NCBI GenBank assembly: GCA_035063765.1
Contig: JAPSFT010000001.1
Coordinates: 71,497-135,496, forward strand
From: Deltaproteobacteria bacterium
Lineage (GTDB): Bacteria > Myxococcota_A > UBA9160 > PR03
DNA length: 64,000 nucleotides
Reading direction: 5' to 3'
Below, one piece after another: positions 4,443 through 24,417 of this stretch. Made by a program: the position numbers and the translations under genes. A model generated the notes under the pieces. That model was not told the origin of the DNA, searched no databases, and was given only the letters and a program-made list of their open reading frames with translations. Position 1 is the stretch's first letter. Each line of letters starts with the position of its first letter.

Positions 4443-4519
4443 TGGCGCCCCCGGGCTGACTCGAACAGCCGACACGCGGTTTAGGAAACCGCTGCTCTAT
4501 CCATCTGAGCTACGGGGGC
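4443..4519 (-). tRNA. tRNA-Arg (anticodon CCT)
   Basis: A full cloverleaf on the minus strand: acceptor stem GCCCCCG/CGGGGGC, D-arm GCTC...GAGC, anticodon stem GCGGT/ACCGC with loop TTCCTAA (anticodon CCT), T-arm GGCTG/CAGCC, discriminator G and encoded CCA. The bases 4481-4519, anticodon loop to 5' end, belong to a repeat that is also found at 13688-13728, so this half was exchanged when the neighbouring element integrated. The integrase gene reads toward the tRNA on the same strand, 44 bases upstream. Confidence 0.95.
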
Positions 4520-4521
4520 GG
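4481..4521. repeat. Left attachment repeat, inside tRNA-Arg
   Basis: A 41 bp sequence identical to 13688-13728. It begins exactly at the anticodon loop and runs through the D-arm and the 5' acceptor strand to 2 bases beyond the tRNA 5' end. It completes the functional tRNA with the chromosomal 3' half (4443-4480). Confidence 0.93.
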
Positions 4522-4563
4522 AAGTCCAGAACCTAACGAAAGTCGGGCACTTGGCGCGAGCGC

Positions 4564-5829
4564 TCATGCTGACGCTCCGTCCGTTTTCGCGAGGTGGGGG
4601 GACTTGTGGGGGGACTCGATCGCCTCGATTCGCGCGATCAGGTCCGCCGGGACCTCTCCCGGCTCCACCTCGAGCGCCCGGCGGTAGGCCCCGGCGCCGG
4701 CCCAGGTGGCGTAGTGGCGCGCCGTCGTGGCCACGTCCTGATGCCCGAGTTGGCCGCTGATGTACCCGAGCTGGATGCCCGCGGTCAGGAGTTGCGAGGC
4801 GAACGTATCGCGAAGATCCTTCGGCGTTCGGCCCGCGAGCCCGGCGGCAGCGCAGATCCCCTCGAAGTGCCGCCCCTGGTAGTTGCGGTGGATGTAGCCC
4901 GGGAGCACGCGGGCTGAGGGCTCCGGCTGCCCCTGCGCCACGTAGAACTCCCGCAGGAGCCGCCGCAGGCGGCGCGAGAGCGCCACCTCCCGGCTTCGGC
5001 CGCTCTTCGGGGCCTCCTCGTACTTGCCCCGGGCCACGCTCGCGCGGATCACGAGCGCCCGGGTCACGTCGTCAGGGTCCCCGCCCCAGCGCACGTCCCG
5101 CCAGCGAAGCCCGGCCACCTCGCCAGCGCGCAGGCCAGCGTCGAGCATGAGCAGGGTCGCGACGTGCGAAGCCTGCGCTTCGCGCCGGGGGCGCCCGTTC
5201 CCGAAGCGCCGCTCGTACTCCACGCGCGAGGCGGTCACCAGCGCCCCGAGCTGCGCCGGCTCCTCGATCGGCCGGATGCTGCCGCCCTGCGCGGCCTCGG
5301 CCCGGCCCCGCTTCGAGCGGCGGCGCCGGCGGAGCGTCCCCCGGAACGTGTCGACCGGGTTCGCGTCGATCAGCTCGAGGTCCACGGCGTAGCCGAACAC
5401 GCCCGAGAGCGCGGAAAGCAGCGTCAGGCCCGTTCGCTCGTGTCGCCCGCGGCCTTCCACCTCGCGATACCACCAGTCGAGCAGGGTCGCGCGCCGGATG
5501 TCGCTCGCGCGCATCGCGCCGAAGTAGCGGCGAAGCTCACCGTCCGCGCCGAGCACGCGGTCGCGATCGTCCCGCGTCGTGCCCGACAGGTGGCCGGTCG
5601 CTTCCTTGAGGTAGCGCTCGGCCAGGGCGCCAAAGGTGTGCGCGGCCTCGCGGCCGGCGCGCTCCGCCCGCTTCCGCAAGTAGGCATCCCGCACCGCCGC
5701 CGCCGCATCCCAGTCGGCCTCTTCGGTGGAGAAGCGCACGCGCTGGCCGTCGAGCACGGCCTCGAAGTAGACCACGGCCCCGCGTCGGGTCAGGTTCCGG
5801 TACTTCGCGCCCTTCGGCTTCGCCTTCAT
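4564..5829 (-). CDS. int: Tyrosine-type site-specific recombinase (integrase)
   Basis: A 421-residue protein. The ATG at 5829 is chosen because GAGGAG lies just upstream; an upstream ATG at 5940 lacks support. There is an arm-binding type N-terminal region, a SAM-like core-binding domain, and a catalytic domain with box I DAGLRAGEVAGLRW, a Lys region (APKSGRSREVAL), LRDTFAS in place of the usual HxxR segment, LGHQDVATTARHY with His and the terminal nucleophile Tyr. The Asp replacing His in LRDTF occurs in many phage integrases. Its 3' end overlaps a repeat pair that may be an arm site, and the gene points at the tRNA it integrated into. Confidence 0.95.
   Translation of the reverse strand: MKAKPKGAKYRNLTRRGAVVYFEAVLDGQRVRFSTEEADWDAAAAVRDAYLRKRAERAGREAAHTFGALAERYLKEATGHLSGTTRDDRDRVLGADGELRRYFGAMRASDIRRATLLDWWYREVEGRGRHERTGLTLLSALSGVFGYAVDLELIDANPVDTFRGTLRRRRRSKRGRAEAAQGGSIRPIEEPAQLGALVTASRVEYERRFGNGRPRREAQASHVATLLMLDAGLRAGEVAGLRWRDVRWGGDPDDVTRALVIRASVARGKYEEAPKSGRSREVALSRRLRRLLREFYVAQGQPEPSARVLPGYIHRNYQGRHFEGICAAAGLAGRTPKDLRDTFASQLLTAGIQLGYISGQLGHQDVATTARHYATWAGAGAYRRALEVEPGEVPADLIARIEAIESPHKSPHLAKTDGASA
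4594..4616. repeat. Left arm-type repeat pair (GTGGGGGGACT x2)
   Basis: Two copies of GTGGGGGGACT, 12 bases apart, inside the 3' end of the integrase gene and about 73 bases from the attachment core. The same double motif, in the same orientation, occurs at 13550-13572 near the other end (21 of 23 bases identical). The position and pairing suggest integrase arm-binding or excisionase sites. Confidence 0.6.
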
Positions 5830-5962
5830 GGTTGCTCCTCGTTCGGCGCCGCATCCGCGGGCACCCGTCGGGTGAGAGGCTACGTCAGAAACGGCCCAGC
5901 CCAGCAACCCCCCTTGCGCGCATCTCGGGTGCGCCGGCACGTTCGGGCTCGGGGGGTGCGGC

Positions 5963-6475
5963 TTGAACGCCGATCAGGCCGTGTGGCGCTACCACCGCCT
6001 GCGCGCGGGTCTCTCGGCGCCGCGGAGCCAGGATGCCGCCGCCGTGCGCGGCTATCTGCTCGCGGCGCGCTGCACCTGCGGAGGCGAGGAGCGCCACGAA
6101 GTGCACAGCGCGCGCGGGCGCGCATGGGTCATGCGCTGCGCGCGCTGCGGACGCGCCTGGCGCCGGGAGCTCGCCTTCGTGCCGCGCGCCGCGATCCAGG
6201 GCGGACGCACCGTGCGCGAGCCCGCGGCGCTCGCCGATCTGGCGACGCTCGCCCGCTGCCTCGAGACGCTCGACCCCTGGCAGCGGCGCGTGATCGAGCA
6301 CTACGTCGCCTGGCCGGGCCCGGGCCGCGCCGACACGGGCATCGCACTCCTCGCGAGCGAACACTGGGCCGAGGCGCCCTTCGCGTGGACGCAGCACCGG
6401 GTCCGCCTGCTGCTGCGCACGGCGCGCGAGGCGCTCGACGCCGAGCTCGCCCGCCGCGGCCTCGCGCAGCACTAG
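5963..6475 (+). CDS. Zinc-ribbon / HTH-like protein of the element
   Basis: A 170-residue protein, the only rightward gene in the element, starting at TTG 5963 and divergent from the integrase. Two CxC/CxxC knuckles (CTCG near residue 37 and CARC near 59) suggest a zinc ribbon. The C-terminal 65 residues (LDPWQRRVIEHY...TQHRVRLLLRTAREAL) resemble a sigma-region-4 or ArpU/Q-type helix-turn-helix. The combination suggests a transcription activator or antiterminator of late genes, but this is inference; no named family is certain. Its 3' end overlaps the stop of the convergent gene at 6472. Confidence 0.55.
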   Translation: MNADQAVWRYHRLRAGLSAPRSQDAAAVRGYLLAARCTCGGEERHEVHSARGRAWVMRCARCGRAWRRELAFVPRAAIQGGRTVREPAALADLATLARCLETLDPWQRRVIEHYVAWPGPGRADTGIALLASEHWAEAPFAWTQHRVRLLLRTAREALDAELARRGLAQH

Positions 6476-6696
6476 GAGCGCCCCTCGATTCGCGCCTGCA
6501 AGCGCTCGCGCATCGCCTCCGGGTCGAGCTCGAGCGCCGCGCACCAGAACTCGCAGCGCGGGCCGCGCAGGAAGTCGAGCGCCGCAGCGCGGGCGGCCTC
6601 CGCCGCGGCGGGCCCGGGAGGCCGCATGGCGTCGTTCACGGCGTGCTCGAGGAGCCCCGCCGCGAGCCGGCGGACGTCCTCGCCGCTGAGCTCCAT
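6472..6696 (-). CDS. Small conserved-looking phage-type protein, 74 aa
   Basis: Starts at ATG 6696, two bases after the stop of the upstream terminase-like gene, so it is probably translationally coupled. It is helical, with a CEFWC segment near residue 49. The function is not known. The position directly after the packaging-type gene suggests a head or packaging accessory role. Confidence 0.55.
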   Translation of the reverse strand: MELSGEDVRRLAAGLLEHAVNDAMRPPGPAAAEAARAAALDFLRGPRCEFWCAALELDPEAMRERLQARIEGRS

Positions 6697-6698
6697 CG

Positions 6699-7163
6699 TC
6701 ACGGCGCCTTCCGCTTGCGCGCCACGAGCCGCGGGCGCGGCGGCGTCGCGAGCGCCTCGAGCGCCTCGCGGACGAGCTCGCCGAGGGCGGCCTGCAGCGC
6801 CGGCACCGATGCGAGGCCTACGAGCAGCGGGGCCCACCGCGCAGGGAGCGCCCGGAGGTGCCGGGCGACGTGCGCCCTCGCGCCGGCGACAGCCTCGCGC
6901 GCGGCCTGCGCGCCGACGAGCTCGCTGCGGAGCCGCTCGTTCGCCATCGCCTGCGCGTCGGCCTTCTCCTTCGCGAGCCGCGTCCACTCCCGGAGCCGGA
7001 CCGTGCGCGCGTCCTCGCGGCTGCGCGCCCGGGCCTCGAGCACGGCCTGGGCCGCCGCCAGGTCCTCGCGGGTGCGGATCGGGCGCACGATGCCGTCGGC
7101 CAGGAGGCGCCGAAGGTGCCGCTCGCTGATGCCGAGGGCCGTCGCGGCCTCACGCTGGCGCAT
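6699..7163 (-). CDS. Putative terminase small subunit, Nu1-like
   Basis: A 154-residue protein. Residues 4-28 form a MerR/Nu1-like winged helix-turn-helix (REAATALGISERHLRRLLADGI), followed by a charged coiled-coil (ARSREDARTVRLREW, AKEKADAQAMANERLRSEL) and a basic C-terminus. This HTH-plus-coiled-coil layout is typical of Nu1-type small terminases, which recognise cos DNA. The gene lies 3' of the capsid gene. It could also be a different HTH regulator. No large terminase is present in the element. Confidence 0.55.
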   Translation of the reverse strand: MRQREAATALGISERHLRRLLADGIVRPIRTREDLAAAQAVLEARARSREDARTVRLREWTRLAKEKADAQAMANERLRSELVGAQAAREAVAGARAHVARHLRALPARWAPLLVGLASVPALQAALGELVREALEALATPPRPRLVARKRKAP

Positions 7164-7206
7164 GGTCTACACCCCCTCGCGTCGGACGGACGGACACGGG
7201 TTTCGC

Positions 7207-7234
7207 GGGCCGGCGCCTAGGCCTAGCCGGCGCG
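7207..7234. other. Palindromic tract upstream of the small-terminase-like gene
   Basis: Between two genes of the element lies CTAGGCCTAG, a perfect palindrome, flanked on both sides by the self-complementary sequence GCCGGC. It may be an operator or an attenuating hairpin ahead of the terminase-like gene. Confidence 0.3.
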
Positions 7235-7285
7235 CGCGCGTACCCGCTTTCCGAACCCCCAGGAAGGACCCGCCCTCGCTGCTCC

Positions 7286-7588
7286 TCAATGGAGCCGGCC
7301 GCGCGCGAGGAGCGCGCCGAGCCGCGGCGCCGTTGCGGGGTCGGCCAGAAGCTCCGCCCCCTTCTCGCGCGCGACGAGGTCGATGCAGGCATCGACGAGC
7401 TCGTGTGCCTCGACCGCGCGCACCGGCTCCGCCTCGAGCGGGAGCAGGGCCCCGTAGAGGCGCAGCCCGCCCGCCAGGAGCGCCGCCAGGTGCTCGGGCT
7501 CGAGGAGTGCGCCGAGCTCGCGCAGCGGGATCAGCACCGGCTCGGGCGTCTCGTAGGCGGCGCGCAGCCGCGGCAGATCCCATTGCAT
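7286..7588 (-). CDS. Uncharacterised small protein downstream of the capsid gene, 100 aa
   Basis: An acidic, mostly helical 100-residue protein (ATG 7588) rich in Leu and Ala, with no recognisable motif. In phage head modules the gene directly after the capsid often encodes a head-tail connector or decoration protein; nothing in this sequence proves that. The neighbours on the same strand are the protease-capsid fusion upstream and the terminase-like gene downstream. Confidence 0.5.
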   Translation of the reverse strand: MQWDLPRLRAAYETPEPVLIPLRELGALLEPEHLAALLAGGLRLYGALLPLEAEPVRAVEAHELVDACIDLVAREKGAELLADPATAPRLGALLARGRLH

Positions 7589-7667
7589 CCGTGTGTACCT
7601 CTCGAGCTCACCCGCCCGCGCCGGCCGTGATGGGGGCAGCCGGCGCGAGCGGGTGGCCCTGACGCGC

Positions 7668-9467
7668 TCAGGTGGTCGTTGCGTCCGTCAGGATCGCGAA
7701 CGACTCGGGGTGCCGGACCGCCACGTCGACGTCATAGAACGCGCGCAGCACGAGGCCGCCCGAGTCGGCGAGCGTGATCGGATCAGTCGTCACGTCGAGC
7801 ACGCCCCATTCGCCGATCAGCAGATCGCGCCAGTTGCCGAAGATGATGGCCGAGCAGACGGCGCCGCTCGAGCCCTTCACGAGGTTCGAGGGCACCTGGT
7901 TCGAGACCGCGGCGCGGCTGCCGTTCAGGAGCCCGAACCCGGGCAGCGTGCCCGCCGGGTGCTCCCACACGAATTCGGCGGTATCCGTGGCCTTCTCCGT
8001 CGTCTTGAGCTTGCTACGCACTTTCGCGTTCGTGAGGTAGGCGAGCGAGCCCACGTCGGCGTTGTCCGCCGCGACCTCGCGCTCGAGCGCCACGACGTGC
8101 GCCCAGGTGGGCGGCCCGCCGTTCGCGCCGATGGCGACGCTCCCGACGCCCGTCGTCCCGAGGATGCCGAGCGGCTGGTTGCCGGCGCCCGAGCCCGCGA
8201 TCGCGGCCAGGTCGACCGCGAGGCCGAGGACGAGCGCCAGGTCGTTGCGCACGAGATGCTCGATGGCCGGCGTACCCTGGAGCAGCATCTTGCGCGTCAC
8301 GTTCGTTCGCGCAGCGACCGTCTTCGGCGTCATCGAGACCGCGTCGAAGCCGGAGTCCGAGGCGGTCACCGTGCCGCCCTCGGCGAGCCATTGCGCCGAG
8401 GCCGCACCGCTCTGGCGCGGGATGTCGACGTCGCCGACGAGCCCCGGGAGGATCGTCGCGCCGAGGGCCCGCACCGCCGCGTTGTTGCGCAGGAGGTCGA
8501 TGAACGAGCCCGCGAGGAGCTCGGTCCCGACGAGCGCCGCGCCCGCCGCGCCGCCGCCCTTCTCGATCGTGCGCGCCTGCGGCGCCGTCAGCACGTCCGG
8601 CGGAACGAAGAACCCGCGCGCCTCGCGGCCGAGCTGCTTCGCGACCGCTTCGGACGCCTCGAGCTCGAGGCCCGCGCTACGCCAGTCGCGCGAGGCGAAG
8701 GCCTTCGCCGCGCGCACGAGCGAGTAGCGCTCGATCTCGCGCCCGCCCATGCCGATGGTCGGCATCTCGAGCGGCTTGGCGGGCGGCACGGCGTTCTTCA
8801 GCGTCCAGGCCTTGAAGTCGCCGCTCGCCCACTCCTCGTTGATCGCGCGCTCGCCCTGCTCGCGCACGTTCCATCGCTCCGCCACCGCGCGGATCTCGGC
8901 GATCCGCTCGCGCTCGAGCTGCGCGGGAGTCTTTCCGTTGGGTTCCATGATCTCGATCCTCTCCTGCGCGCGGCCGATGCCCACGGTCGGGTCGGCCGCG
9001 ATCGCCACAAGCGACACCTCGAACGGCGTCCACCTGGTTGCCGTGTAGGTGTCGCGCTCCTCGCCTTCCTGGCGCTCGACTTGGTCGAGCGAGTACCCGA
9101 TCGAAATCTCCGGTAGGAGGCCCTCGAGGACGTCCGCGAAGAGCTCACGGGCGCGGCGCCCGTTCCCGAACCGCAGGCGCCCGCGCAGGCGCCGGCCCTC
9201 GAGGCGGATCGCCTCGACGCGACCGATGGGCTCGCGCGGATCGTGCGCGAAGAGGAGCGCCAGGCCCCGCTTCGCTCGCGAGAGGTCGACGGCCTCGCGG
9301 GTGTGCCGGAGCACCTCGCGCCCGTACGCCCGCTCGACCGGCTCCTCGCTCGAGAGCGAGGCCTCGACGACGCGCTCGGTGTCGCCCGACGCTCGCTCGC
9401 CGAGCTCGAGCGTGAAGACGCGACGCGCCACGCTACCCCGGGCCGGAGGCCCGCCAGGCTGGCTCAT
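7668..9467 (-). CDS. Fused prohead protease and HK97-fold major capsid protein
   Basis: A 599-residue protein from ATG 9467. Residues 1-165 match the S78 (HK97 gp4-type) maturation protease: catalytic His in LLFAHDPREPIGRV and catalytic Ser in LPEISIGYS. A helical delta-like scaffold segment follows (about 175-270, EPNGKTPAQLERERI). Residues about 300-599 are an HK97-type major capsid domain (AQWLAEGGTVTASD, MTPKTVAARTNVTRKML, GAGNQPLGIL, DVAVRHPESFAIL). The fusion would deliver protease, scaffold and shell as one polypeptide. The gene is the strongest phage marker in the element and looks intact. Confidence 0.92.
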   Translation of the reverse strand: MSQPGGPPARGSVARRVFTLELGERASGDTERVVEASLSSEEPVERAYGREVLRHTREAVDLSRAKRGLALLFAHDPREPIGRVEAIRLEGRRLRGRLRFGNGRRARELFADVLEGLLPEISIGYSLDQVERQEGEERDTYTATRWTPFEVSLVAIAADPTVGIGRAQERIEIMEPNGKTPAQLERERIAEIRAVAERWNVREQGERAINEEWASGDFKAWTLKNAVPPAKPLEMPTIGMGGREIERYSLVRAAKAFASRDWRSAGLELEASEAVAKQLGREARGFFVPPDVLTAPQARTIEKGGGAAGAALVGTELLAGSFIDLLRNNAAVRALGATILPGLVGDVDIPRQSGAASAQWLAEGGTVTASDSGFDAVSMTPKTVAARTNVTRKMLLQGTPAIEHLVRNDLALVLGLAVDLAAIAGSGAGNQPLGILGTTGVGSVAIGANGGPPTWAHVVALEREVAADNADVGSLAYLTNAKVRSKLKTTEKATDTAEFVWEHPAGTLPGFGLLNGSRAAVSNQVPSNLVKGSSGAVCSAIIFGNWRDLLIGEWGVLDVTTDPITLADSGGLVLRAFYDVDVAVRHPESFAILTDATTT

Positions 9468-9841
9468 TGGATGAGTCTCGTTCGGTGAGCTGCGGCGCGG
9501 GTTGCTGTGCTCGCCGCGCTCGGGGCCGGCCGCCAGGCCGGGTGCGGAGTCGCGATCGCGCGCAGGGTGCGCCTGGAGCCCTCGTCCCGCCGGCGGCGAG
9601 CTCCTCGGCGCGGTCCCCCGCGCGGGGTCGTCTCGCTACCTCGGGTCGCGATGGGCTGGGCTCCCGAGCCCATCGCGTCGGCCCCGCGAGTCCGCCGCCC
9701 TCCCGGGCGCCGCCCTCGCGGCGGCTTCCGATCCGCGGCCGGGTCGCTCCCTCCCGGGAGCGACACGCCACCGCGGCCGGCTGCTTGACGGCAGAGGCTA
9801 TCACGGCACGCCAGGAGCGCGAGCATTCGCGTGGCCCTCCT
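9468..9841. other. Structured non-coding tract between annealing protein and capsid genes
   Basis: 374 bases with no convincing gene. It contains an 11 bp perfect stem with a 9-base loop (CGCGATGGGCT 9647-9657 / AGCCCATCGCG 9667-9677), a 9 bp stem with a 4-base loop (GTCGCTCCC 9743-9751 / GGGAGCGAC 9756-9764) flanked by direct copies of CCGCGGCCGG (9733-9742, 9771-9780), and a 12 bp palindrome CCCCGCGCGGGG at 9616-9627. It could hold the head-gene promoter, an RNA, an antitermination site or a packaging site. Confidence 0.5.
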
Positions 9842-10639
9842 TCAGTCGAACGGGTTCCCTTCGCTGGCGGCCGCCGCGCCCGGGCCGTCGGTGAAGGCGC
9901 CCGCGATCGCGGACACGAGCGCGTCGTAGTCGCGCGCGAGCACGTCGCCGGAGTGCTCGTAGCCGTGCGTCGCGAGGAGCGCGCGCACGCGCGCCTCGAC
10001 GTCGGCGCGGTCGAAGCCCTGCGCCGTGCCGGCCTCGGCAGCGACGGCGAACAGGCGCCTACGCTGCGCGTCGCTGATGCGCCGCTCGGCGCCGCCGCTG
10101 CGCGCCGGCCGCTCCGGCGCGCGCGACTGGCGCCGGGGCTCGCGCTCCTCGCGCGCCTCGGCCGAGCGCCGCGAGGGCGGCGCGCAGGCGGCCTGGCCGT
10201 CGTCGTCGTCGTCGGTCGCGATGCCAAGGAGCGCCGCCAAGGCGTAGCGCCGGGCGTAGGTGAGGGCCGAGCCGACCCCCTGCGCGTCAGCGCGCGTGAC
10301 GGGTAGCAGGAGCTCCGTCTCGAGCGCGGCACCCGATGCGTGCAGCACGATCGTGCGCACGCCCGCGCTCCGTGGGTCGGCGACGAGCGGTATCTGCACG
10401 ATGGCCAGCGCGTGCCGCGCGAGCACCGGGCGCGCGAGCTCGAGCACCTGGCCGAGCGTCGCGTAGGCGTAGGAGTAGTTGCCCTTGTCGGTGCGGACGT
10501 CCGCGCGGGCGTCGGCGGCCACGTTGCGGAGCTCGCCGAGGGCGGACACGAGCGCCGCCGCGAGCGTCGGCGCGACGCTGGCGCCCGGGTCGACCGGCGG
10601 CGGGGTCGGCTCCTGGGGGGGCGTCGGGTCATCGGTCAT
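9842..10639 (-). CDS. erf: ERF-family single-strand annealing recombinase
   Basis: A 265-residue protein (ATG 10639). The core GNYSYAYATLGQVLELARPVLARHAL, near residues 45-70, and GVGSALTYARRYALAALLGI, followed by an acidic DDDDDG, are hallmarks of the ERF superfamily, which anneals single strands during phage replication and recombination. A basic linker leads to a C-terminal helical domain ending in the short NPFD tail. The start overlaps the upstream zinc-protein gene by 11 bases. Confidence 0.9.
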   Translation of the reverse strand: MTDDPTPPQEPTPPPVDPGASVAPTLAAALVSALGELRNVAADARADVRTDKGNYSYAYATLGQVLELARPVLARHALAIVQIPLVADPRSAGVRTIVLHASGAALETELLLPVTRADAQGVGSALTYARRYALAALLGIATDDDDDGQAACAPPSRRSAEAREEREPRRQSRAPERPARSGGAERRISDAQRRRLFAVAAEAGTAQGFDRADVEARVRALLATHGYEHSGDVLARDYDALVSAIAGAFTDGPGAAAASEGNPFD

Positions 10640-11003
10640 GGCGTGTCTCCCTCTGGCGCATGAGCGCCTCGATCTGCCTGCGCCCGCCGGCCCGCCGCGG
10701 CTGGGGTCTCGGCCTGGCGGCGAGCCCACGCAGGCGGTCGGTCTCGAGGGCCTCGCAGCGGGTGCAGCGCACCGGCGCCCCGAGCTGCGGGTGCCGGCGG
10801 CGGAAGGTCGGCTCGTCGCAGGCGCAGCACTCGACGAGCGGCAGGTGGGCGTCGTCACGCCGGGACACCTCCCCCTCTTGGGTGGCCCGGCTCGGGTGTC
10901 CCGAGTGTCCCCCCTCCGTAGGAGGGGACACCTCGGGACACCGGGACACCGGGGGTGTCCCGAGTGTCCGGGACACCTCGGGACACGCGGGACACTCCAG
11001 CAT
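10629..11003 (-). CDS. Zinc-binding small protein overlapping an iteron tract
   Basis: A 124-residue frame whose ATG overlaps the helicase stop (TGATG at 11001-11005). The C-terminal half has two Cys pairs (CCAC and CTRC) spaced like a zinc ribbon. The N-terminal part is low-complexity, encoded by the GGGACAC repeat cluster, and repeats CPEVS twice. A shorter version starting at an internal GTG (near 10867) just before the zinc ribbon is possible. The role is unknown; it lies between helicase and annealing protein in the replication block. Confidence 0.5.
   Translation of the reverse strand: MLECPACPEVSRTLGTPPVSRCPEVSPPTEGGHSGHPSRATQEGEVSRRDDAHLPLVECCACDEPTFRRRHPQLGAPVRCTRCEALETDRLRGLAARPRPQPRRAGGRRQIEALMRQRETRHDR
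10862..10995. repeat. GGGACAC heptamer cluster (iteron-like)
   Basis: Ten exact heptamers in 134 bases: GGGACAC at 10862, 10925, 10935, 10943, 10970, 10980 and 10989, and its complement GTGTCCC at 10896, 10905 and 10955, with one imperfect copy at 10964. Most neighbouring copies are 8-10 bases apart, close to one helical turn. The cluster lies directly downstream of the helicase gene, the position of the replication origin in several satellite families. Confidence 0.75.
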
Positions 11004-12493
11004 CAGAGCACCTCCAGGCCGCTCTCGGGCAGCAGGCGGAATCGATCCGGCAGCTCGTCGGCGATCCGGCGCGCGAGCGCCTTCGCGTCCGTGCGGCGCT
11101 TGCCCGAGGGCTTCCTCTCGGGCGCGATCTCGAACAGGTGCCGCGCCAGGTCGGTCACGGTGTAGGAGCCCGACTCGAGGTCGAGCAGGCGTGCCCGGAG
11201 CGCCTCGGCCTCGGCGCAGGTCGGCGGCCCGGCCAGCTCCCAGCGGATCACACGGTCGCCGTGGGTCGCCGTCGCGAAGTAGAGCTCGGAGAGCGGGGGC
11301 ACGTCGTTGACGACCGCGTCGAGCATCCGCACGCCCGGCTCGATCTCCCAGAGGGTCGCCACGCTGCGCGCGAGCTGCGCCAGGACGGCGCTCCCGCGGA
11401 TCTCCTCCATCCGCTCGCCCTTCGTCAGCTCGGCGGCCGGCTTCGCCTTCGGCGGGCGCTTGCGCGGGTGGTGGATCAGGACGCCCGACGGGCCGAGCGA
11501 CTCGGCGATCCGGTCGAGCTGATCGATCGCGAGGCGCGCGCCCTCGTCGTCGTTCACGGTCAGTCCCGGCGGCAAGAAGTGCTGGTAGGGGTCGATCACG
11601 AACACGTCGTAGCGGCCGTCCGCGATCGTGTTGCCGAGCACCTCCACGCCATGATCGTCGAGCGGGAGCGCGCGCTTCTCCTTGCCGATGATCGCGACGC
11701 GGCCGTCCATCCATGCGCCGTCCGGGGCGAGCGCGGCGAGCTTGCGGACGATTGACAAGGTGGTGTCGTCCTTGCTCACGATCAGGGCGCGCATCGGGTC
11801 GCGGCCGTCGTGGCGGCCCGTCCAGGGCTCGCGGCCGTAGATCAGGTCCACGACTACCCGGACGATCGAGGTCGTCTTGCCGATGCCTGTCTGCCCCGCG
11901 TAGACGGTCGTCAGGCCGGGGTAGAGGACATGCGTCGCGACGGGGACGATCGAGGGCGCCGCGGCTAGCGTGGCGAGCTGCTCGCGGGTGGGCACCAGCT
12001 CGACGTAGCTCCGGATGCGCGGCTCCTGCGCGCCCAGCTCCGACGCGATCGCGCCGAGCTCCCGGCGCGCCACCTCGCGCAGATCGTCGGGCGTCGCGGG
12101 CTCGACGAGCCGCGCCGCCAGGAGCCGCTCGCGGCGCTCGAGCGCCTCGCGATGGACGGCGCGCGCGTGCGCCAGGACGTGCGCACCCGTCGCCGCGCCA
12201 TCGGCCAGCTCGGCGAGCCGCACCGCCGCACGGTGCGCGTCGCCCGTGGACTCGCGCGACATCGCGGCGTGTAGGGTCGGTAGGTCGATCGGGTCGCCGC
12301 GGTCGGCCAGGTCGAGCATCGCCTGCGCGACCCGCGCGAGGAGCGGGTCGGCGAGGTCCGCGGGCGTCGCGATCGCGAGCGCCTCGCGCACCCGCTCGGG
12401 GTCGCCCCCCACGAGGAGGCCGCCGAGCAGGGACTCCGCCGGCGACGGGATCGCGCGGTCGGGGGGCGGCGCTACACTTGCGGGCACCTGCAT
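11003..12493 (-). CDS. Replicative helicase-like ATPase (DnaB-N domain plus RepA-type motor)
   Basis: A 496-residue protein from ATG 12493. Residues 15-110 resemble the DnaB N-terminal domain (SPAESLLGGLLVGG, ADRGDPIDLPTLHAAM). From about 185 there is a RecA-like motor with Walker A GQTGIGKTT, Walker B VFVIDPY, a GVLIHHPRKR sensor segment and RGSAVLAQLARSV, as in RepA-type helicases of plasmids and phage. The C-terminus looks like a winged helix. It would unwind the element's origin. It is translationally coupled to the zinc protein gene. Confidence 0.88.
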   Translation of the reverse strand: MQVPASVAPPPDRAIPSPAESLLGGLLVGGDPERVREALAIATPADLADPLLARVAQAMLDLADRGDPIDLPTLHAAMSRESTGDAHRAAVRLAELADGAATGAHVLAHARAVHREALERRERLLAARLVEPATPDDLREVARRELGAIASELGAQEPRIRSYVELVPTREQLATLAAAPSIVPVATHVLYPGLTTVYAGQTGIGKTTSIVRVVVDLIYGREPWTGRHDGRDPMRALIVSKDDTTLSIVRKLAALAPDGAWMDGRVAIIGKEKRALPLDDHGVEVLGNTIADGRYDVFVIDPYQHFLPPGLTVNDDEGARLAIDQLDRIAESLGPSGVLIHHPRKRPPKAKPAAELTKGERMEEIRGSAVLAQLARSVATLWEIEPGVRMLDAVVNDVPPLSELYFATATHGDRVIRWELAGPPTCAEAEALRARLLDLESGSYTVTDLARHLFEIAPERKPSGKRRTDAKALARRIADELPDRFRLLPESGLEVL

Positions 12494-12544
12494 CCGTGTC
12501 CTCGACCCCGCCGTGGTCTCGTCGCCGCGGCGGGGTCACTCGTC

Positions 12545-12817
12545 TCAGCCCGCGCTCCTCGCCTCGCGCTCGAGCACGCGCTCGGCGACGGCCTCGGCGC
12601 GCGCCGTCGTGCGCGCGGCCTCGCGGCGCCACCACGCCTCGACGTCGACGCGCAGGACGCGGATCGCGCGCCCGCGCCGGACGCCGGGGATCTCGCCGCG
12701 GCGGATCAGCTCACCCAGGTACGCGCGCGACAGGCCGTACACGCGCTCTACCCCGCGCATGGACAGCGTCGCGCGGTCGTGGTCGCGCTCGATGATCGGT
12801 CGAGTGTCGCGGGGCAT
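12545..12817 (-). CDS. AlpA/excisionase-like helix-turn-helix protein
   Basis: A 90-residue protein from ATG 12817 with a MerR-type winged HTH (MRGVERVYGLSRAYLGELIRRGEIPGVRRG, shown here only to locate residues 20-49) followed by VDVEAWWRR, the standard ending of AlpA/Xis-type DNA-binding domains. In satellites and integrative elements such proteins act as excisionase or activate the integrase. It lies directly upstream of the helicase. Confidence 0.78.
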   Translation of the reverse strand: MPRDTRPIIERDHDRATLSMRGVERVYGLSRAYLGELIRRGEIPGVRRGRAIRVLRVDVEAWWRREAARTTARAEAVAERVLEREARSAG

Positions 12818-12875
12818 GGGCGCACACTGCGCCGATTGCGCGCGGCGTGCACGTCAGAACTTGGTGCCACCTTTT

Positions 12876-13448
12876 TCATCGTGCGCGCGGCGGCAGCGGC
12901 TTCCGAGGTGTCGGGTCGTGGTCCCGGGCTGCGTGGAGCGCCGCCAGGAGCGCGCTCTCACTGTTCGCCGCGTAGAGCTCGCGGAGCCTGGCGATCGCGG
13001 CTCCTGGGGCCAGCGGGCAGCCCGGGACGCCCACCTCGAGCGGAGCGCGCGGGCCGGATTCGATCGCGAGGCGCACGATGCCCTGCCCCTGCGTGAGCGC
13101 GCGGTAGGCGGCGATGAGCTCGCGCGGGTCGCGCTTGCGGGGCCGCTGCCAGCCCATCGCGCGCTGGACGCGCTGGAGCTTCTGGCGGTCGGTTGCCTCG
13201 GAGCCCAGCACCTCGAGCGCCAGGCGCTCGCGTGCCGCGCGATCGTCGCCCTGCGCGTGGAGGCGGCCGAGCTCGGCCGCCATCTCCTCGCCTAGCGCGC
13301 GCAGCGCAGCGAGCACGGTCGCGCGCGAGGCGCCGGTCTCGATCGCCTGGCCGAGCGCCTGGTAGGCCGCTGCCGTTCGCGCGCGGCCGCGGAAGCGGCC
13401 GATGCTCTCCGCCATCCGGCGGAGCCGTCGCATCTCCGGGTCGGACAC
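12876..13448 (-). CDS. Uncharacterised helical protein, first gene of the element's left-directed block
   Basis: 190 residues if translation starts at GTG 13448, which has GAGGAG 10 bases upstream; the frame remains open to 13610. It is rich in Arg, Ala and Leu, with helical segments (RARTAAAYQALGQAI, RKRDPRELIAAYRAL) and no Cys/His cluster. No family is recognised. Its position at the head of the replication block suggests a regulator or replication accessory. Confidence 0.5.
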   Translation of the reverse strand: MSDPEMRRLRRMAESIGRFRGRARTAAAYQALGQAIETGASRATVLAALRALGEEMAAELGRLHAQGDDRAARERLALEVLGSEATDRQKLQRVQRAMGWQRPRKRDPRELIAAYRALTQGQGIVRLAIESGPRAPLEVGVPGCPLAPGAAIARLRELYAANSESALLAALHAARDHDPTPRKPLPPRAR

Positions 13449-13687
13449 GCTGCCGCTGCTCCTCGCGGCGCTCCGGTGGGAGCCTCGGGGCAGGGAGCGG
13501 AGCGGCTCCCGTTCGGCTGGCCGGCCTAGCCCCGAGGCGAATCGCTCAGGTGGGGGGACTACTGGGGGGACTCCCCTCATTCGTCGCCACACCGGGCCAT
13601 GTAAGGCCATTGCGAGGGGATGCGCAACCCCGCGGAATCACAGGAAGTCGAGTAGAGACGCAGAGATGCGTCAGACACTCGAGCCCA
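13449..13687. other. Right-end control region of the element
   Basis: Non-coding stretch between the first element gene and the right attachment repeat. It holds the right arm-type repeat pair (13550-13572), a GACGCA-GAGA-TGCGTC hairpin at 13657-13672, and probably the promoter of the leftward operon. Confidence 0.45.
13550..13572. repeat. Right arm-type repeat pair
   Basis: GTGGGGGGACT followed 12 bases later by CTGGGGGGACT, same orientation as the left pair at 4594-4616, and 115 bases from the right attachment core. Candidate integrase or excisionase arm sites. Confidence 0.6.
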
Positions 13688-13728
13688 TTAGGAAACCGCT
13701 GCTCTATCCATCTGAGCTACGGGGGCGG
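13688..13728. repeat. Right attachment repeat: orphan 5' half of tRNA-Arg
   Basis: Identical to 4481-4521. It holds the 5' acceptor strand, D-arm and anticodon loop of the tRNA on the minus strand, but no 3' half follows. It is the chromosome's original 5' half, still joined to the original upstream sequence. Confidence 0.93.
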
Positions 13729-22986: not shown

Positions 22987-24417
22987 CTAGGGCTCGGCGC
23001 AGAGCTCCTCGAGCGAGCGGCGCTCGGCGTCGACGCCGAGCACGCGCGCCACGATCGCCGCGCCGATCATCAGCGCCGACGAGAGCGCGTAGCCGGCGAA
23101 GAGCTGCCTCGGGTCCTGGGTGTCGACGAGGGCGCCGAAGAGCGCGGGCGCCCCGACGCCGCCGACCAGCGTGCCGAAGGCGTAGAACACGGCGATCGCC
23201 ATCCCGCGCAGCTCGACCGGGAAGAGCTCGCTGACCGTCAGGTAGGCCGAGCTCGCGGCTGCCGACGCGAAGAAGAAGACGAGCGACCACGCGAGGGTCT
23301 GCGTGAGCGCGTCGAGGAAGCCGGCGACGAAGAGCCCGCCGGTCGCGAGCAGGAGCAGGCCCGCGAGCGCATAGGTCGCGGGGATCATCACGCGCCGCCC
23401 CCAGCGGTCGAAGGAGCGCCCGAGCAGGATCGGGCCGAGGAAGTTCCCGGCCGCGAACGGGATCACGTACTTGCCGACGTCGCCGGCGGGTACCCCGTGG
23501 AAGGCCTCGAGGATCAGGCCGTAGCTGAAGAAGATCGAGTTGTAGAGGAAGGCCTGCGCCAGCATCATCACGAGGCCGAGGATCGTGCGCCGCGGGTAGC
23601 GGCGGACGAGCGTGCGGATCAGGTGGGGGATGCCGACGGGGCCGTGCACGCGGACGCGCACGGGCGCCACCTCGCTCCGGCGTCCGGCGCCGGGGCCACG
23701 GACCTGCGCCTCGATCCGATCGACGGTCTCGGAGGCCGCGGCGAGGTAGCCGTGGCTGAGGAGCCAGCGCGGGCTCTCGGGCATGTGGCGGCGCACGAGC
23801 ACGATGCCGAGGCCGAGCGTTGCGCCGAGCGCGAAGACGAGCCGCCAGCCGATCCCGACCGGGAGCAGCTCGGGATCGAGCAGCACCAGCGTGAGCCCCG
23901 CGCCTAGGCCGACGCCGACCCAGTAGCTCCCGTTGATGGCGAGATCGACCTGGCCGCGGATGCGTGCGGGCACGAGCTCGTCGATCGCGGAGTTGATCGC
24001 CGAGTACTCGCCCCCGATGCCGGCGCCGGCGAAGAAGCGGAAGACGAGGAACACGCCGTAGCCCGGCGCGAGCCCGCTGAGTGCGGTCGCGACCAGGTAG
24101 AGACCGAGCGTCACGAGGAACAGCCGCTTGCGGCCGAGGCGATCGGTCAGGTAGCCGAAGACGAGCGCTCCGGCGACCTGGCCCGCGAGGTAGACCGAGC
24201 TCGCGAAGCCCACCTCGGCGGCCGAGAGCCCGAGCGCGCGCGGATCGCGCAGGGTGGGCGCGAGGTTCGCGATCAGGCTCGCTTCGAGCCCGTCGAGGAT
24301 CCACGTGACCCCGAGCGCGATCACGAACAGGCGGTGCCATCGCGACCAGCCGAGCGCGTCGAGCCGGGGCGGCACGTCGGTCTCGACCCAGGCCCCGAAG
24401 GGCGTGTCCCTTCGCAT
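22987..24417 (-). CDS. Major facilitator superfamily transporter (sugar/organic acid type)
   Basis: 476 residues with 12 hydrophobic segments. Typical loops are seen: GYLTDRLGRKRLFL after segment 2, FRFFAGAGIGGEYSAINSAI around segment 4-5, RRHMPESPRWLLSHG, and a second-half FDRWGRRVM. These match the metabolite:H+ symporter and sugar-porter branches. It ends close to the dimethylformamidase-like operon on the same strand, and may import its substrate (inference). Confidence 0.9.
   Translation of the reverse strand: MRRDTPFGAWVETDVPPRLDALGWSRWHRLFVIALGVTWILDGLEASLIANLAPTLRDPRALGLSAAEVGFASSVYLAGQVAGALVFGYLTDRLGRKRLFLVTLGLYLVATALSGLAPGYGVFLVFRFFAGAGIGGEYSAINSAIDELVPARIRGQVDLAINGSYWVGVGLGAGLTLVLLDPELLPVGIGWRLVFALGATLGLGIVLVRRHMPESPRWLLSHGYLAAASETVDRIEAQVRGPGAGRRSEVAPVRVRVHGPVGIPHLIRTLVRRYPRRTILGLVMMLAQAFLYNSIFFSYGLILEAFHGVPAGDVGKYVIPFAAGNFLGPILLGRSFDRWGRRVMIPATYALAGLLLLATGGLFVAGFLDALTQTLAWSLVFFFASAAASSAYLTVSELFPVELRGMAIAVFYAFGTLVGGVGAPALFGALVDTQDPRQLFAGYALSSALMIGAAIVARVLGVDAERRSLEELCAEP

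Follow-up and report, generated by a model that had tools for sequence, protein, structure and literature searches.

GGGACAC iterons downstream of an AAA_25 helicase gene as a probable replication origin of a satellite-like element, with parallels in phages

Introduction

In SaPI and PICI elements, the replication origin lies immediately 3′ of the rep gene (PMC6092414), and in both SaPI Rep and the SCCmec helicase Cch2 the iterons on the 3′ side are read by the C-terminal domain of the protein (PMC7581432).

The origins of most environmental phages are unknown. As a rule, replicative helicases of the DnaB/RepA class depend on a separate initiator and in many cases also on a loader. In a Lactococcus phage, a protein that resembles RepA and AAA_25 is a proven 5′–3′ helicase (PMC8965321). 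A link between AAA_25 helicases and iterons was not reported in the open-access literature that we searched, from which earlier work may have escaped us.

Here, we describe a dense array of GGGACAC heptamers in a 64-kb window (the window being the whole stretch of DNA analysed) which, judging from its sequence features, is very probably the replication origin of the mobile element that carries it.

A satellite-like element in a tRNA-Arg gene

The array belongs to an element of 9.2 kb (4481–13728). A 41-bp segment of a tRNA-Arg gene, repeated exactly, marks its two ends, and its features are the following:

4481–4521, no strand assigned: attachment site repeat, a 41-bp exact repeat within the tRNA-Arg(CCT) gene (4443–4519, minus strand)
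4564–5904, minus strand: tyrosine integrase (family matches)
6699–7163, minus strand: terminase small subunit-like protein, TerS (PHROG 57, E 1e-13)
7668–9467, minus strand: prohead protease-capsid fusion (family matches)
9842–10639, minus strand: ERF single-strand annealing protein (Pfam ERF, 1e-19)
11003–12493, minus strand: replicative helicase, DnaB-N plus AAA_25, RecA-fold (Pfam AAA_25 6e-17, DnaB 7e-13)
12545–12817, minus strand: AlpA/excisionase-like HTH protein (HTH_17 and PHROG excisionase matches)
13688–13728, no strand assigned: second attachment site repeat at the other element end, a 41-bp exact repeat

The small, att-bounded element has the gene content of a PICI satellite, with an integrase, an AlpA-like protein, TerS and an incomplete structural module; a capsid-protease gene is present, while searches with ten element ORFs revealed no gene for a portal, a large terminase or a tail. 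Pfam and PHROG searches with these ten ORFs matched no known initiator family. One ORF (5963–6475, plus strand) runs opposite to the other genes of the element and has a 55% identical counterpart in the sister element introduced below; its cysteine pairs suggest a zinc-ribbon protein.

The iteron array

10862–10995, no strand assigned: iteron array of ten GGGACAC heptamers, the proposed origin
Heptamer starts, with strand: 10862 plus, 10896 minus, 10905 minus, 10925 plus, 10935 plus, 10943 plus, 10955 minus, 10970 plus, 10980 plus, 10989 plus

Ten exact GGGACAC copies occupy 134 bp, seven on the plus strand and three on the minus strand, and the array begins 7 bp past the helicase stop. This confirms the number, orientation and 134-base extent given in the original prediction, and its placement of the array immediately 3′ of the helicase gene stands as well. 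The predicted spacing of 8–10 bases describes the start-to-start distances over much of the array and fails at wider gaps of 34, 20, 12 and 15 bp. Two further sites are degenerate by one base (GTGTCCG at 10964–10970 and GTGGCCC at 10882–10888).

The window holds 11 copies of GGGACAC in total, the copy outside the array being at 24404, and the heptamer is more strongly clustered than every other 7-mer in the window (the runner-up, CGCGCGC, reaches 8). When the whole window was dinucleotide-shuffled 200 times, the best GGGACAC cluster per 134-bp span had 2 copies, while 2000 shuffles of the 134-bp span alone gave a mean of 0.3 and a maximum of 3. Near-identical short sites are thus clustered beside a replication gene, as in an iteron-type origin. 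The array itself is 27% A+T, 40-mers within about 500 bp reach at most 38% A+T, and no AT-rich melting region was found in the array or in the approximately 500 bp around it.

An overlapping small ORF

10629–10868, minus strand: small zinc-ribbon-like ORF with two CxxC motifs (sequence and codon-position G+C)

The array had been described as falling inside a small coding frame, to which it would give a low-complexity N-terminus. The frame is open and runs from 10629 to 11003 (minus strand) with an ATG at 11003 that shares bases with the helicase TGA; its extent across the iterons is probably a start-codon over-extension, since G+C differs less between codon positions within the array and the alternative start GTG 10868 follows a purine-rich stretch. 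The iteron part of the ORF has values of 0.71/0.67/0.78, without a coding signature, compared with 0.78/0.61/0.91 in the rest of the ORF and 0.77/0.50/0.95 in the helicase. With GTG 10868 rather than ATG 11003 as the probable true start, the iterons fill a 135-bp intergenic gap between the helicase and the zinc-ribbon gene. Family searches with this small ORF gave no match.

Small ORFs that lie over the helicase stop and run through or beside the iterons recur (L018, 7996–8280; L540, 4291–4617; and the window, 10629–11003), and are likely to be annotation over-extensions or coupling-translated leaders.

The open frame lends some support to the idea that the array is a low-complexity coding repeat, or a product of slippage, with no function at the DNA level. 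Against this idea, the heptamers are spread over both strands and two reading frames, so that they encode no tandem peptide repeat, and the codon-position bias is lost across them.

Relatives within the genus

A sister element with the gene order of the window element is found in a congeneric genome (L533, 9165–16772). Its proteins are 46% (integrase), 49% (TerS), 56% (capsid), 36% (AlpA) and 27% (helicase) identical to those of the window. GGGACAC is absent from L533, and 11 copies of CCGTGC/GCACGG (GGCACGG-type) are found at the corresponding place. Relatives that keep the protein without the heptamers had been named as the case that would speak against the origin reading; L533 is such a relative, yet another repeat occupies the spot, and a conserved place with a different repeat fits lineage-specific origin recognition rather than coding constraint.

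The genome of the window itself encodes a second element-type replication gene (L531; G000 contig C49, 944–3250) with Prim-Pol, PriCT-1 and AAA_25 domains, and directly after this gene lie GGCACGG-type iterons and a CCCCCTATAGGGGCAC dyad that match those of L533. The helicase tail and the GGCACGG-type iterons are thus common to a Prim-Pol-AAA_25 protein (L531) and a DnaB-N-AAA_25 protein (L533), whereas the window helicase, which also has DnaB-N, differs from both in its tail and in its iteron. This natural swap, in which tail and iteron change together and the N-terminal module varies, argues for the tail as the reader of the iterons.

A dyad between the iteron groups

10905–10931, no strand assigned: imperfect dyad GTGTCCCCCCTCC-GTA-GGAGGGGACAC between the iteron groups, with equivalents in L533, L531 and phages

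The dyads of L533 and L531 are CCCCCTACAGGGG and CCCCCTATAGGGG, and those of the phages ACACCCCTATAGGGGTGT, with a shorter version in loci with TTGGACA iterons. Dyads with G+C-rich arms and A+T loops were counted in 44 of 95 iteron-bearing flanks versus 13 in shuffles, a comparison that uses a crude two-base-block shuffle as its control and includes some dyads built by the iterons themselves. As single-stranded DNA, the array is predicted to fold strongly (z −5.7 and −4.5). RSF1010 with its ssi hairpins and pRN1 with its stem-loop offer a comparison (PMC4234260), and by analogy one may speculate that the dyad serves for helicase entry or priming.

A repressor could also bind such densely packed inverted sites and G+C-rich dyad, or transcription could stop there, and the dyad is similar to a terminator stem; the array might then be a regulatory site behind the helicase gene (an operator, a terminator or a copy-control element) rather than an origin. 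This is improbable. The dyad is not followed by a T-run, a set of 10–18 sites located 3′ of a replicative helicase gene with none at its 5′ end would be unusual for an operator, and the layout is that of PICI and SCCmec origins that have been tested (PMC6092414, PMC7581432).

Iterons downstream of phage helicase genes

In viral contigs, the mixed-orientation GGGACAC pattern was found in at least 120 stretches compared with 12 for the reversed control. The direct-only pattern was discarded as evidence, being indistinguishable from its reversed control in viral contigs, and in bacterial genomes direct-only arrays are mostly coding tandem repeats. Both observations on direct-only arrays would suit a coding repeat in the window too; set against them are the at least tenfold excess of the mixed-orientation pattern and the position 3′ of helicase genes that is kept across phage loci, and a purely coding origin of the array is extremely unlikely.

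Genes near the arrays (at most 600 bp from mixed arrays, with a small selection of direct-pattern loci added) were set against distant genes of matching length, drawn from the same loci at distances above 4 kb. Primases and helicases dominate near the arrays, while capsid, portal, terminase and integrase genes dominate far from them. AAA_25 was present in 29 of 129 near genes and falls outside the 25 commonest families of far genes, a list that reaches down to single-member families. With an iterated AAA_25 profile seeded from the array-adjacent phage helicases, an AAA_25 gene was found within 500 bp of the array in 45 loci out of 112. The array is at the 3′ side of the gene in every one of the 45, many of these loci being mutually related; the AAA_25 genes of the set form 17 groups at 40% identity. 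Arrays of control motifs had an AAA_25 gene within 500 bp in 0 of 12 and 0 of 120 cases. The window helicase was picked up by the profile before its own inclusion (E 6e-13).

Other arrangements were also encountered. Five GGGACAC arrays (L375, L387, L408, L356 and L352) are located 3′ of probable D5/VapE-type helicases, recognised by a P-loop motif, and the repeat is therefore not confined to a single helicase class. Four loci (L044, L109, L120 and L122) carry GGGACA repeats within a gene, where they encode GT/RDT repeats; this gene seems to encode a replisome organiser of the winged-helix kind, in resemblance to an origin within an initiator gene. About 50 A+T-rich viral contigs (L008–L126) have GGGACACCAT-type iterons in two groups flanking an A+T-rich stretch, often with TTGATAT inside, which look like the origin of a different group of phages.

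In a reverse test, 80 viral loci were chosen by helicase protein alone, with an alignment of GGGACAC-associated helicases as the query, which makes the test only partly independent. The 56 loci with complete flanks were scored by their most frequent 6-mer within 400 bp spanning the stop codon, with a threshold of at least 6 copies. Such a repeat surrounds the stop in 45 of the 56, many of these again mutually related, and neither the 5′ end nor the middle of the gene has one in any locus (0/56 each). The repeat sequence varies from lineage to lineage (GGGACA, TTGGACA, TCGGTAC, TCGGTGC, CATCCGA, AACCGAA and GGCACC), which indicates that iterons 3′ of the helicase are a common feature of these phages, with GGGACAC as one specificity among several.

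Among isolated phages, Escherichia phage ZCEC10 (Dhillonvirus; L546, 575–2839) carries six GGGACA copies about 100–230 bp 3′ of its AAA_25 primase-helicase, Roseobacter phage CRP-406 has 3′ repeats of a sequence other than GGGACA, and Burkholderia phage BcepGomr is equivocal. Clear 3′ repeats were not found in the five isolated actinophages examined or in Vibrio phage 1245, so the 3′-iteron rule is not universal. Among the best-scoring AAA_25 genes from the phylum, where the gene was located in about half of the loci, such repeats were found only in the sister element; the rule thus applies to phage-type helicases and not to the AAA_25 domain as such. Close relatives of the window helicase were not found in viral contigs, genome contigs or named phages. 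Overall, these results support the origin reading of the original prediction and extend the 3′ position and the array architecture to many phages.

Which protein reads the iterons

11003–11230, minus strand: helicase C-terminal region (last ~75 residues), the proposed iteron-reading domain, based on the phage helicases and the swap within the genus

In a set of phage helicases that are about 85% identical over 600 columns, the ratio of identity within to identity between iteron types is 1.01–1.09 outside the tail and 1.7–2.1 in the last ~75 columns; TCGGTAC-type and CATCCGA-type proteins, for instance, have near-identical cores. After removal of near-duplicates, C-terminal identity is 0.71 within versus 0.43 between iteron types, and core identity 0.87 versus 0.83; the C-terminal difference was reached in 0 of 5000 permutations of the iteron-type labels, which ignore relatedness and carry no tree correction. 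The C-terminal domain of the phage helicases is predicted to be a winged helix (pLDDT mostly 87–95), and the solved structures nearest to it are largely winged helices, with E-values of just 0.04–0.3. The motif [KR]A[FLW]xR occurs in 6 of 22 non-redundant GGGACA-type tails and in 0 of 66 others; at 6 of 22, no single recognition helix accounts for all GGGACAC origins. We consider with considerable confidence that in the phages the C-terminal tail is the iteron reader.

The corresponding role of the tail in the window protein is probable. Its predicted structure (pLDDT ~40) is too uncertain for a fold assignment, and its profile did not match that of the phage tails. This uncertain tail leaves some room for an origin whose iterons are read by a separate protein (the AlpA-like protein, the zinc-ribbon ORF or a host factor), the AAA_25 helicase being merely recruited. 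Such a division of labour exists in RSF1010, where RepC reads the iterons (PMC4234260, PMC8965321), and GGGACAC arrays adjoin unrelated helicases and initiators as well. It is nevertheless unlikely here: iteron type follows the helicase tail both in the phages and in the genus, homologues of the ERF protein and of the small zinc-ribbon ORF were not detected in the L533 region examined, and the element has zero GGGACAC copies outside the array, hence none near alpA. Of the two binders originally put forward, the helicase, through its C-terminal domain, is thus favoured by the co-variation of tail and iteron over the AlpA-like protein.

Proposed mechanism and implications

Taken together, the sequence comparisons give good confidence that array and dyad form the origin, with the helicase tail as reader, of a compact satellite-like element that is integrated at tRNA-Arg and carries a capsid gene. 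The DnaB-N/AAA_25 helicase would bind GGGACAC behind its own gene via a C-terminal domain of winged-helix type and, by analogy with SaPI Rep, assemble on both groups of iterons, one at either side of the dyad; the DNA would open or extrude at the dyad and the helicase would load, while DnaG, the primase of the host, may be recruited through the DnaB-N domain.

On balance, we favour a broader generalisation. In a large and diverse class of phages and satellites, RecA-fold helicases (AAA_25, RepA/DnaB-type) would be their own origin recognisers, with a swappable winged helix that reads iterons just 3′ of the gene, in many cases next to an ACACCCC-TATA-GGGGTGT dyad that is independent of the iterons; tail and iterons would travel as a specificity cassette while DnaB-N, Prim-Pol and Toprim modules replace one another at the N-terminus. 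As the DnaB/RepA class normally works with a separate initiator, a fused origin-reading tail would represent a different initiation logic for this class. As a rule, a repeated 6–8-mer 3′ of an AAA_25 helicase gene would predict both the origin and its reading domain from sequence. The natural swaps, in which either the core is kept while tail and iteron change, or the N-terminal module changes while tail and iteron are kept, make a DNA-recognition code of winged helices directly testable, and ZCEC10, an isolated E. coli phage with a GGGACA array, is a convenient test system.

Comparison with known origins

The RepA helicase of RSF1010 is of the same broad type as the window helicase (a RecA-fold hexamer), and oriV likewise combines iterons with short stem-loops (PMC4234260, PMC8965321); in RSF1010, however, the iteron reader RepC is separate and the primase is a separate protein, whereas the tail is the proposed reader in the window, where Pfam and PHROG searches recognised no RepC-like gene among the ten element ORFs. 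The pRN1 origin also lies downstream of the replication gene, with a stem-loop and a protein that contains a winged helix (PMC4234260), but the protein is an SF3 primase-helicase, the stem-loop measures 100 nt and the origin has no iterons. In SCCmec, iterons (AAGTG) directly downstream of the helicase gene are bound by the isolated C-terminal domain of Cch2 (PMC7581432); there, the repeats are three 5-nt units, the helicase is of the D5 type and the origin is putative.

SaPI and PICI elements share with the window element the short iterons directly behind the element's helicase gene, together with an integrase, an AlpA-like protein and TerS (PMC6092414, PMC7581432). They differ in that Rep is described as related to DUF927 or D5-type primase-helicases, while the window protein combines a RecA-fold AAA_25 domain with DnaB-N, and in that the window element has a capsid gene of its own. 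In PICI origins an AT-rich region lies between two sets of iterons, whereas in the window array a G+C-rich dyad lies between the two groups. The window array thus shares the 3′ position of SaPI/PICI origins and has neither their AT-rich region nor a Rep-type (DUF927 or D5-like) helicase; with another helicase class and no AT-rich core, we do not file it as a PICI origin. The SaPI analogy drawn at the outset, an iteron origin beside the rep gene, holds by its 3′ layout (PMC6092414, PMC7581432).
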